From: an uncultured Algibacter sp. | GTDB taxonomy: Bacteria > Bacteroidota > Bacteroidia > Flavobacteriales > Flavobacteriaceae | Direction of reading: 5' to 3' | Assembly: GCF_947487575.1 (NCBI RefSeq) | Contig: NZ_CANKXG010000016.1 | Span: 1 to 35,099 of the forward strand | DNA: 35,099 nucleotides | Part shown: piece after piece, positions 5,517 to 26,845 of the stretch | How positions within the stretch are numbered: the first letter of the stretch is position 1 | How the letters are laid out: every line of letters begins with the position of its first letter | Position numbers and translations under genes: made by a program | The notes under the pieces: model-generated | The model's database searches: none | Told to the model about the DNA's origin: nothing | Seen by the model: the letters and a program-made list of their open reading frames with translations, nothing else

Positions 5517-6151
5517 TTATTTTAAAAAAGATTTCAGTTTATCTCTTTTTCTTTTAGGCAAAGCGTTATTATCCATTATAAGTTTAATATGATTTTGATT
5601 CTTTTCTTTTTTGTACAATAAATCAAAAAAATCGGATATACTTATACTGTCTTTTGCTTTGGTAACCAAATTTAAAGTGTCTCCAGCTTTAACGTAACCT
5701 TCTTTTAAAACTCTCACATAAGTTCCTGGAAATCCATGGTTAATAAATTGAGTTAAAACCTCTTGAGTTCCAAATTTTATACCAAACTTAAAACAAGGTT
5801 CTCTAGGTTGTGTTATTTGCACTAAGGTTGAACCAATTTTAAAAATATCGCCAATATAGATGTCTTTTTCATTTAAACCAGAAACAGTCAATTTTTCACC
5901 AAACATGCCCCAATTCCAATCTAGGTTTGGATATAGGTTTTCCAATAACCATATTGATTTTCTGAAAATAAATAGCACGCCTTAAACTCCCCGCCATGTA
6001 CTTTTCTATCTGAGACTTCATCATTTTTAACGATTTCTTTTCCTAAAAACATAGCTTGATTAATAGGTTTTTTGTAAATACCTGTTGTTACTTCTTTACC
6101 ATTCCAGATGATAGTAACTGGTTTTGCTATGTTTGTAGAGGTTATTTTCAA
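5517..6151 (-). pseudogene. MOSC-domain protein (YiiM-like), frameshifted
   Basis: Two reading frames together encode one YiiM-type MOSC protein. 6151-5921 gives the N-terminus (MKITSTN..., RKVHGGEFKACYLFS, QYGYWK). The other frame continues from about 5945 with NLYPNLDWNWGMFGE, QITQPREPCFK and a C-terminal helical 3-alpha domain. The frames join if one A is restored in the run of four at 5938-5941 (T on plus strand), giving YWKNLYPNLDW. The N-terminal frame has no ATG, only a TTG at 6151 a few bases from the cassette boundary. The family binds molybdenum cofactor and handles N-hydroxylated bases. It may be a real pseudogene or carry a sequencing error; a programmed shift is unlikely because no slippery heptamer is in frame. 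Confidence 0.8.
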
Positions 6152-6158
6152 ATGGTTC

Positions 6159-6289
6159 GTTTAACGTTGAGTATAAGAATGGTAGCCGACTGCGTGGCTA
6201 CTTTACTGTCAAGTTGCAAGATAGTTGAAGCGGGCAACAACCCTTGAATTTACTGCTGTCTCGGCTATTATTTTTATACATTGTTATGC
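6159..6289 (-). repeat. attC-like recombination site (131 bp)
   Basis: The ends are GTTTAAC (6159-6165) and GTTATGC (6283-6289). Inner arms GTATAAGAATGGTAGCCGA (from 6171) and TCGGCTATTATTTTTATAC (ending 6279) pair with few mismatches, leaving a less-structured centre. This is the R''-L''...L'-R' plan of integron attC sites: an imperfect stem with GTT/AAC outer boxes. Read on the minus strand it begins GCATAAC, the exact complement of the box at the head of the upstream gene, and ends in GTTAAAC (perfect GTTRRRY). Its length is within the known attC range. Confidence 0.65.
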
Positions 6290-7847
6290 ATTGGGCTTTG
6301 TTGGGTTTATAATAGTTGGTTAATTATTTTTTCAGTTTCAACGTGTGCTGGTCTAAAGCTACTACCAGTTCTAATTATCTGACCTTTTCTGTCAATAATT
6401 GAATATGTTGGGTATCCACTTATTTTAAGAACCTTCACAAAATATGCACTCTGTTTATCGTTCAAGAAATAATGCTTCCCTTTTAATTTTTTATCTGCTA
6501 AAATAGTCTTCCATTGTTTCTCTTTTGATTTTAGACATAAGTAGACAAAAGCAACATCTTTATCCTTGTACTCCTCCATCATTTTATTAGAATTAGGAAA
6601 CTCTGATATACAAGCACCGCACCATGTCGCCCAGCAATCAATATATATCACTTTGTCCTTGTTGTCATTTAGAATGTTTTTCCAAATCTCTATGGCTGAT
6701 TTGTCAGTTGTCCCATTTACTTCTATTTCCGAAGCTAATACTGGCTTTTCTATTATTTTTTTAGTCTCGTAATAATGATTGTTAATTGGCTCAATTAGAA
6801 AGTTTTTGGTAATAATAGTTTTTATCAAGTTCTCATTTTTTTCATAAAGAGCAACTTCATACTTTGTCAGTCTTGAATTTACAAACTCATTTAAGGTAAT
6901 TTGCTTTATTAATCCATTATTTGGAGAAAGTTCAATTATCTGATGGAAGATTAATGAATCTGCATTTCTTTTTGAAATTGAATCAGCATGATTCCACGCA
7001 ATTTCCCAAATGTAATCATTTAAAAAACGGTTAATGAACCAACGTGTATCAGAATAAATTAAGTCTTCAATTCCAAGGGGTTTAATGTTTGAGATAAAAT
7101 CAAAATATTCCTCTTCAATTCTCCAATCACGTGAAAGTTTGTTATATCTTTTATGTCGGTCTGGGTAATCCAATAATTTCTCATAATAAGAACATTGAAT
7201 ATCAGAATTTATCCAATTTATTAGTTCTTTGTCTGGTTTATGACTAGTAATAAAATCATCCCTAAATGCTTCTCGTGCAATTCGAATACTATCTTGGAAT
7301 TTTATGTAATTTGCTGCATTAAGTATTTTTTCCTTTTCGTGAATTATTTTACTACTTGGTCTGGTCTCAAAGTAGTTTTTTAAGTATTTGGCTAATTTTG
7401 AATTAAGTTCAGCCGCATCTCCTGAGTACTTTACTGTTTCAAATATTTTTGTCCGTTGTCTGGTATTCCCATTAAATTCAACATAAAGACTGTCACCAGG
7501 ATGCACGATTATTCTAAAGTTTGTTTTGTAAGCAATCATTACATCTTGAGGATAATATCTGTCAAATTTGACGTGGAAATTTCCTAAGGAGTCAACTTTT
7601 GTAGGATAATTTAATTGTGTCGCTCTGCCATTGTCATTTATATAAATTGTCAAAATGTTCTTTCCAGAGTTTCTATCAAAATTGATAATCTTTCCTGCAA
7701 TAATAATAATATCTTTCTTTTCATGAATTACTGTCGGGTTATTACATGAACTCAGTAGAGTTAAAATTGAAATAGTAAAAAATAAAATGGTTCTCATAAA
7801 TATATAATTTTGTTTGTTTGCAGAATGTCTTTTTGCCTTATGCATAA
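6165..7847 (-). mobile_element. Integron-type gene cassette (TlpA-like gene), no integrase seen
   Basis: If recombination falls after the G of GTTRRRY, the cassette runs on the minus strand from 7847 to 6165 (1,683 bp) and carries one gene plus its own attC at the 3' end. The diagnostic feature is that the cassette's 5' end (G^TTATGC) is the exact complement of its attC outer box (GCATAAC). The outer junctions match each other (GTTTAAC/GTTAAAC). No integrase, attI or further cassette is in the window, so it would be a solitary cassette or a cluster of attC sites lacking an integrase. Confidence 0.55.
6307..7797 (-). CDS. TlpA-like thioredoxin-fold lipoprotein
   Basis: 496 residues from the ATG at 7797. 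An upstream in-frame ATG at 7845 lies inside the attC-like box and would put 16 polar residues before the signal, so I reject it. The start gives a clean lipoprotein signal, MRTILFFTISILTLLSSC, with C18. An N-terminal beta-rich domain is followed by a long alpha region (about 130-360) and a C-terminal thioredoxin domain with WCGAC (C393, C396) and the cis-proline segment ISGYPTY. Such proteins are membrane-anchored thiol-disulfide reductases in the periplasm. The gene is the sole cargo of an attC-flanked cassette inserted between the alcohol dehydrogenase and MOSC genes. Confidence 0.88.
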   Translation of the reverse strand: MRTILFFTISILTLLSSCNNPTVIHEKKDIIIIAGKIINFDRNSGKNILTIYINDNGRATQLNYPTKVDSLGNFHVKFDRYYPQDVMIAYKTNFRIIVHPGDSLYVEFNGNTRQRTKIFETVKYSGDAAELNSKLAKYLKNYFETRPSSKIIHEKEKILNAANYIKFQDSIRIAREAFRDDFITSHKPDKELINWINSDIQCSYYEKLLDYPDRHKRYNKLSRDWRIEEEYFDFISNIKPLGIEDLIYSDTRWFINRFLNDYIWEIAWNHADSISKRNADSLIFHQIIELSPNNGLIKQITLNEFVNSRLTKYEVALYEKNENLIKTIITKNFLIEPINNHYYETKKIIEKPVLASEIEVNGTTDKSAIEIWKNILNDNKDKVIYIDCWATWCGACISEFPNSNKMMEEYKDKDVAFVYLCLKSKEKQWKTILADKKLKGKHYFLNDKQSAYFVKVLKISGYPTYSIIDRKGQIIRTGSSFRPAHVETEKIINQLL

Positions 7848-7895
7848 CTTATGCGGATATGAAAACGTTTTAATGTTTTATATCCGACGTTAAAC
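7842..7895 (-). repeat. attC-like recombination site (54 bp)
   Basis: The boxes are GCATAAC (7842-7848) and GTTAAAC (7889-7895). Between them a strong hairpin forms from CGGATAT...AAAAC and GTTTT...ATATCCG (about 7854-7886). On the minus strand it reads GTTTAAC...GTTATGC, the same outer boxes as the site at 6159-6289. It is at the short end of known attC sizes. A further GGTAGCCGA (7899-7907), also found in the arm of the other site, lies just outside. Confidence 0.55.
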
Positions 7896-7942
7896 GAAGG
7901 TAGCCGAAATTTTTTACAAAATCAAGTTTCAATCCAAACAAA

Positions 7943-26746: not shown

Positions 26747-26845
26747 GGGCGTTACCCTAAAGGGTCGGGCTTTCCGCTGTATCTTTTTTGAGAAAAACAA
26801 AAAAGGATGCCGCTACAATCCCTAACGCAGGAGCCGTTACTCCTA
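26747..26845. ncRNA. Structured element upstream of ftsY, probable Bacteroidota repeat RNA
   Basis: Nested helices are visible: GCGTT (26749-26753) with AACGC (26824-26828); ACCCTAAAGGGT as a small hairpin; and ATCTTTTTTG (26781-26790) with CAAAAAAGGAT (26798-26808). A further AGGAGccgttaCTCCT hairpin (26829-26845) ends 32 bases before the ftsY ATG. I recall near-identical elements (GGGCG...GGGTCGGGC...CCGCT...GGAT...ATCCCTAACGC) recurring in many Bacteroidota genomes, possibly one of the Flavobacteria structured-RNA motifs, but cannot confirm the family or strand. It could be an RNA, a leader of ftsY or a repeat. Confidence 0.45.

Follow-up and report, generated by a model that had tools for sequence, protein, structure and literature searches.

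A tlpA-like gene of an Algibacter genome in a probable integron-type cassette held in a dispersed, promoter-like slot

Introduction

Sedentary chromosomal integrons are built from cassettes of a gene and an attC site that join at G^TT junctions, with folded, strand-biased attC sites standing in same-orientation arrays beside a tyrosine recombinase. The canonical R' box of these sites follows the consensus GTTRRRY. An additional domain is given as the hallmark of integron integrases in the accessible text of three studies (PMC9024848, PMC9668308, PMC2426708), and clusters of attC sites without an integrase have been named CALIN elements (PMC8618304, PMC9024848). Integrons are described as particularly prevalent in Proteobacteria, with Bacteroidota among the carrier phyla (PMC8618304). 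For Bacteroidetes, the accessible part of the IntegronFinder 2.0 study reports one complete integron, in Salinibacter ruber M1, and earlier lone integrases only (PMC9024848). Gene-exchange systems of this kind are hardly described in this bacterial group, and the literature on integrons, cassettes and repeats that we covered, a scope outside which most subscription papers fall, describes no such integrons or slots for Flavobacteriaceae.

Here, we analyze a tlpA-like gene in a window of 35,099 nucleotides, by which we mean the whole stretch of Algibacter DNA under study. The gene is carried by an integron-type cassette of 1,683 bp (6165-7847 on the minus strand), and to judge from sequence comparison, this is very probably a single cassette of tlpA gene and 131-bp attC that is held in a resident slot of an integron-like exchange system. 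The system resembles sedentary chromosomal integrons in its cassettes of gene and attC, its G^TT junctions, its folded, strand-biased attC sites and its same-orientation arrays beside a tyrosine recombinase. Unlike in these integrons, the recombinase lacks the additional domain of IntI and has an extra N-terminal part, R' seldom reads GTTRRRY, and recombinase and nearby attC sites are co-directed. As in CALIN elements, cassettes lie away from the integrase; in contrast to them, the cassettes are mostly single, each sits in a copy of a conserved slot with a promoter-like part and a hairpin, and the places of these slots are conserved between species.

Results

The tlpA cassette and its flanking sites

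All box letters quoted in an earlier note on this DNA stand in the window where it had placed them (GTTTAAC at 6159, GTTATGC at 6283, GCATAAC at 7842 and GTTAAAC at 7889), and GTTATGC and GCATAAC each occur a single time on the plus strand of the window. The match that the note saw between the outer boxes reaches 11 letters, TTCGTTTAACG, read from 6156 on the plus and from 7898 on the minus strand.

Along the minus strand, on which all features lie, the locus begins with the promoter-like core of the slot at 7895-7925, consisting of TTG (7925-7923), 20 nt and TACCTTCG (7902-7895), whose activity is putative. The R''-like 5' outer box of the slot, TTCGTTTAACG (7888-7898), is complementary to 6156-6166 and is followed by the slot hairpin (7854-7886) with the arms CGGATAT (7886-7880) and ATATCCG (7860-7854). 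The 5' crossover (7847-7848) is placed between G 7848 and T 7847. The mobile cassette beyond it holds the gene for a TlpA-like thiol-disulfide lipoprotein (6307-7797; Pfam Redoxin and Thioredoxin_8) and its own 131-bp attC (6159-6289) with R'' GCATAAC at 6289-6283 and R' GTTAAAC at 6165-6159. The 3' crossover lies between G 6165 and T 6164, and the 3' box of the slot, TTAAACGAA (6156-6164), abuts the MOSC gene. The longer tlpA-like open reading frame (6307-7845, minus strand) encodes a TlpA/thioredoxin-like protein; we preferred the start ATG at 7797 over the one at 7845, because it gives a lipoprotein signal with the lipobox LSSC. The TlpA-like lipoprotein is ordinary cargo.

Attribution of an attC-like architecture to both flanks was borne out. 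However, the earlier reading as two attC sites of unequal length (131 and 54 bp) had to be revised, as the 54-bp site is part of a resident slot, which has many copies in the genome. The left site matches the attC model at 6156-6292 on the minus strand (72.3 bits, E 7e-16), in addition to the covariation of its family and the same attC in genome G473, and the right site matches the slot model with 100.9 bits; since each site is a training sequence of its model, independent support comes from the array attCs and the cassette copy in G473. DNA-fold z-scores against shuffles were not notable for the two strands of the left site (-1.23 and -0.32) and were -2.94 and -3.03 for those of the right site. 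Rfam at gathering cut-offs gave no match at the two flanking sites.

The 12-mer TTCGTTTAACGT is found in 28 exact copies in the 3.5-Mb genome, compared to about 0.8 expected from base composition. These copies often form convergent pairs with a spacing of 57 bp to 2.4 kb, and at least three of them (L057, L063, L070) are unlike slots or cassette ends. With one mismatch permitted, the genome has 69 matches versus 57 for a reversed-pattern control, so that such matches are mostly due to chance and the signal lies in the exact matches and their convergent pairing.

The same cassette in another genus

A search of 397 genomes of the family at E <= 1e-40 yielded a tlpA homologue in five of them, our own genome counted. 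In G473, which belongs to a different genus, the same cassette is present with one mismatch (1682/1683 letters, from position 3347 of contig L303). Compared letter by letter, the cassette is thus near-identical in two genera and stops at G^TT on either side, where identity breaks after the G and before the TT; outside it, nothing in the surrounding 4.2 kb matches G473, where the contig offers only some 140 bp past the cassette for comparison. This agrees with the earlier proposal of a cassette of integron type joined at G^TT, and a mobile unit of gene and attC bounded in this way corresponds to an integron cassette. On the G473 contig, the attC model matches three times on the same strand, once at the attC of the tlpA cassette, and the slot model gives no match. 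With an array copy in G473 and a slot copy in the window, the cassette was therefore shared recently between array and slot, directly or via a third source.

No match to the tlpA cassette was found in a phage collection (distant mode), and a plasmid search (near mode) matched nothing but a 115-bp part of its attC, with 93% identity. The matching attC lies on the Persicobacter psychrovividus plasmid pPP2 (L305), from a different order of Bacteroidota, which has 20 attC matches on one strand. An attC of the same family also occurs in Polaribacter phage P12002L (L304, 14500-14631; E 9e-12).

The attC family

The 131-bp site on the left is the cassette's own attC, one of a family whose stems covary strongly. 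At the end of most resolved cassettes stands a site of about 126-133 bp whose first box is the first letters of the cassette reversed. Over at least seven letters, the reversed cassette start was found in the cassette's own 3' region in 33/42 filled slots, compared to 103/1710 swapped pairs; the other 9/42 failed this test. The attC model was trained on 25 chosen sites including that of the window, with L050 and L072 (long middles) and sites failing the box test omitted. In these 25 sites, the stem showed 50 double-change cells versus 12.5 in shuffled alignments, and 95.3% of the cells were paired versus 80.8% after shuffling and at most 35.3% after sliding. The bottom strand folded better in 24/25 sites, by 2.36 kcal/mol on average. 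Two A.C oppositions recur in the stem (25/25 and 23/25 sites) and become T.G pairs on the bottom strand; because integrons recombine the bottom strand, they may act as a strand signal.

The sites have the R'', L'', L' and R' arms and the strand-biased hairpin of an attC, with equal arms and no clear extrahelical bases; attC scoring used a model built from the family itself. GTTRRRY was fitted by only 5/42 slot cassettes and 16/189 array boxes, the latter located via their GTT, which 189 of 191 possess. Among up to 54 scored candidates per genome, the attC model matched in at least 42/60 genomes (our own counted) and at least 32/47 genera. A survey with up to 11 scored candidates per genome detected the family in at least 90/295 genomes of the class Bacteroidia.

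Structure and distribution of the slots

The 54-bp site on the right is part of a resident slot composed of a promoter-like core and a short hairpin. Twenty hand-chosen slot sites, on which the slot model was trained, can be aligned along 80 columns, including an upstream stretch that they share. Conservation begins abruptly 28 nt before the box. Within the hairpin, 88.0% of the cells were paired versus 80.8% after shuffling and at most 42.5% after sliding; the bottom strand was better folded in 12/20 sites and the top strand in 6/20, indicating little strand bias. The core shows TTG at one position in 65/74 parsed sites, and TAnnTTCG in 67/74 or TAnnTTTG in 2/74; in the window slot, 20 nt separate TTG from TACCTTCG. 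It resembles the Bacteroides -33/-7 motifs TTTG and TAnnTTTG, as given in the accessible text of PMC2483708, and is thus promoter-like, with a presumed function as promoter. Where the outer boxes vary, both do so in concert (TTCGTTTACCG/CGGTAAACGAA and TTCGCTAACG/CGTTAGCGAA).

In our own genome, the slot covariance model gave 40 matches at E <= 0.01, 35 of them at E <= 1.3e-5, and in the survey it matched in 13/60 genomes (our own counted) and 5/47 genera. An exact slot pattern, searched for in one genome per species, retrieved 61 stretches from Algibacter, Winogradskyella, Wocania, Flaviramulus, Hyunsoonleella, Lacinutrix, Olleya, Confluentibacter and Gaetbulibacter, as well as from records labelled merely as Flavobacteriaceae, Flavobacteriales or Bacteroidia bacteria. 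No slots were found near 30 recombinase genes or within cassette arrays.

Filled, empty and exchanged slots

We parsed 74 slots, a chosen part of all matches: 30 from our own genome (31 of the 40 model matches, from which L112 was then left out for a divergent box) and 44 from relatives (44 sites in 40 hand-picked stretches, out of 224 matches). The partners of L163 and L174 and the start of L062, which has no slot hairpin, were assigned by hand, and L197 was classed as unresolved. Overall, 42 slots were filled, 13 were empty, with both boxes closing on each other around a short hairpin, and 19 were unresolved. In the filled slots, the base before TT was A (29) or G (13) on the slot side and always G on the attC side (42/42), the latter being somewhat favoured by our rule for picking partners (at most one mismatch to the box). 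Because the slot-side base varies and the attC-side base is G, we placed the exchange before TT.

When both flanks were compared by blastn, 15 groups of slots, assembled by hand from the list of flank matches, were common to different species; a match on both sides was demanded because the downstream flanks of unrelated slots are weakly alike. Contents differed in 14 of these groups, six of which include an empty member. For instance, one slot is occupied in G000 by 2.4 kb that include a cytosine methylase and in G007 by 1.2 kb that include a Fic gene, and is empty in G008. By these flank comparisons, the genomes hold many dispersed slots with contents varying between species. At the tlpA locus itself, the empty site expected between the dehydrogenase and MOSC genes was not obtained in nine other genomes of the genus; empty members were found instead in the six other slots. 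The dehydrogenase was present at E 1e-150 in 3/9 of these genomes, and a MOSC gene followed within 1.5 kb only in G009, with another gene in between. The slot-like stretch of G009 (E 0.48) was equalled or beaten by 8/107 control segments and is not significant.

Where an open reading frame of at least 60 aa was present, the longest one pointed away from the slot core in 35/36 cassettes, and 6/42 cassettes had none of this length. No two of 37 cassette proteins were alike at 1e-8. Among slot proteins compared with Pfam, 9/20 had no match, and slot and array cargo shared five distant matches in four proteins (30-43% identity). Five of ten cassette proteins (of the 37) matched models of a defence-gene library. 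The anti-phage defence models concerned, GajA, PtuA, SoFic, caspase and type II methylase, were matched by the cargo of slots L182, L198, L168, L165 and L069, and L069 has an additional 298-aa open reading frame on the opposite strand. A mini-cassette of some 105-125 bp that lacks a gene occurs at several places in the genome (L055, L061, L062, L086), with similar starts at L111 and L112; L086 seems to be a tandem of two cassettes away from the main array.

Cassette arrays and their recombinase

The earlier note had described the cassette as being without an integrase. None is encoded in the window; genome-wide, however, an integron-integrase-like recombinase and an attC array lie on another contig. 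The 393-aa tyrosine recombinase (C6:249200-250381) adjoins a gene that reads, by eye, like dnaG, and behind it 31 attC matches follow on a single strand from C6:251314 towards the contig end. As attC arrays were found beside the recombinase gene, we dropped the reading of a genome without an integron integrase. In the main array of the same genome, L283 (6710-8512) contains three adjacent open reading frames, the third of which looks like a caspase-type peptidase by eye.

The best NCBIfam model for the recombinase is the integron integrase TIGR02249, with a score of 212.8 bits, which is below the cut-off of 265. It also resembles the XerA-like "site-specific tyrosine recombinase/integron integrase" family NF040815 (205 bits, under the cut-off of 220), from which it differs by its link to attC arrays and its extra N-terminal stretch. 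The nearest solved chains are XerC-like 4a8e and XerA 5hxy, followed by IntI4 2a3v. The SAM-like and Phage_integrase domains assigned by Pfam lie from residue 101 onwards, and no domain precedes this residue at E <= 0.001; relative to integron integrases, the protein has about 95 extra N-terminal residues. Compared to IntI4 (2a3v), 21 aa replace 64 between two aligned stretches, in the region where the additional domain of integron integrases lies. The suggested search for an IntI with this domain therefore led to an integron-integrase-like recombinase from which the domain itself is absent. A search with PF13408 led nowhere.

Ten array stretches from seven genomes (G000, G002, G005, G015, G021, G023, G033) provided 191 attC sites for analysis, all of which lie on one strand as in tandem same-orientation arrays (191/191); 9/200 matches cut by stretch ends, partial or weak were left out, among them one weak opposite-strand match overlapping a forward one. 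At least seven complementary letters were found in 167/180 pairs of neighbouring array attCs, compared to 14/6937 swapped pairs. The expected start of a first cassette was present just 3' of the recombinase in 6/8 stretches that include one, five times exactly and once with a mismatch. These six are candidate attI sites at which recombination may take place, and three of them read ATATAACnA^GTT.

An attC was located within 1.5 kb of 12/30 recombinase genes versus 0/23 control loci, and in all 12 loci it lies downstream on the same strand; one further stretch (G015 C7) has a divergent recombinase. Three or more attC sites were found in 34/37 genomes with the recombinase (E <= 1e-45) and in 3/23 without it, and in the class, attC sites occurred in at least 67/142 genomes with and at least 23/153 without the recombinase, shared ancestry being ignored in both comparisons. 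These results show that the attC family forms tandem arrays beside an integron-integrase-like tyrosine recombinase.

Slot numbers do not follow the same rule, as no direct match with recombinase presence was found across the surveyed genomes. G008 has 36 slots, yet at E <= 1e-30 merely one recombinase match, which covers 195 query residues and contains a stop. G014 and G017 each carry a 55% identical recombinase, and G003 has attC sites and a recombinase match; the slot search found none in these three genomes. Because slot numbers do not track an intact recombinase, slots may be served in trans or may partly be relics.

Discussion

Movement of the units by a hairpin-recognising HUH transposase (IS200/IS605-like, Y1) through single-strand peel-and-paste would account for the dispersed hairpins and the strand asymmetry of the attC sites. 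We consider it very unlikely, as such an enzyme explains neither the same-strand tandem arrays, in which the boxes of nearly all neighbours pair, nor the tyrosine recombinase beside attC sites and the junctions at G^TT. Slightly less probable again is that chromosomal XerC and XerD move the cassettes in the manner of dif modules: the genome does have genes for which XerC and XerD are the best-fitting models, but the hairpins of the sites are long and their self-complementary boxes vary, and an attC within 1.5 kb was found at 0/4 control loci with Xer or other integrases.

The outer boxes TTCGTTTAACG, being dispersed inverted repeats, could also form the ends of a composite or MITE-like transposon, and the slot itself may be MITE-like. 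For the cassette, this origin is already disfavoured by the unit common to G473, which omits the outer boxes, and slots common to different species retain boxes and flanks while their contents change; we give it hardly any weight. The same small weight goes to homologous recombination between repeated hairpins, which would swap slot contents without a dedicated recombinase: slots do have about 80 bp of similar sequence in common, whereas the junctions fall at one dinucleotide and the cassette-specific ends pair with their own attC.

We therefore favour a single integron-type cassette held in a resident slot of an integron-like exchange system. Acting on the folded bottom strand of attC, the recombinase would exchange strands at G^TT and in this way shuttle cassettes between the array beside it, further arrays and the slots, where the promoter-like core would transcribe the captured gene. 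As far as sequence can tell, the system works like an integron, a wording chosen because the missing additional domain and the RRRY part of R' set it apart from the IntI family in the strict sense. It is likely that we are dealing with an integron lineage of the Bacteroidota's own, with a recombinase that lacks the IntI domain but has a new N-terminal part, and an attC family of its own whose polarity is marked by A.C oppositions (T.G pairs on the bottom strand). In addition, the genomes of Algibacter and related genera would contain dozens of promoter-bearing slots at scattered places, which would capture and express single cassettes in parallel and not solely at the head of an array. Such a lineage would be missed where IntI is defined by the extra domain.

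One attC family recurs across the class and forms long arrays in several Flavobacteriaceae. If the reading is true, it would shift where gene-capture systems are sought. It would also raise the question of whether the extra IntI domain is needed for recombining folded attC sites, and dispersed slots would represent an added route for expressing captured genes.

Two further features of the window may be mentioned. The MOSC gene directly after the slot (5517-6151, minus strand) has an apparent TTG start a few nucleotides past the 3' box of the slot and a frameshift in its first third, which is either a real lesion or a sequencing error. A Flavo-1 RNA lies at 26759-26833 on the minus strand (57 bits).
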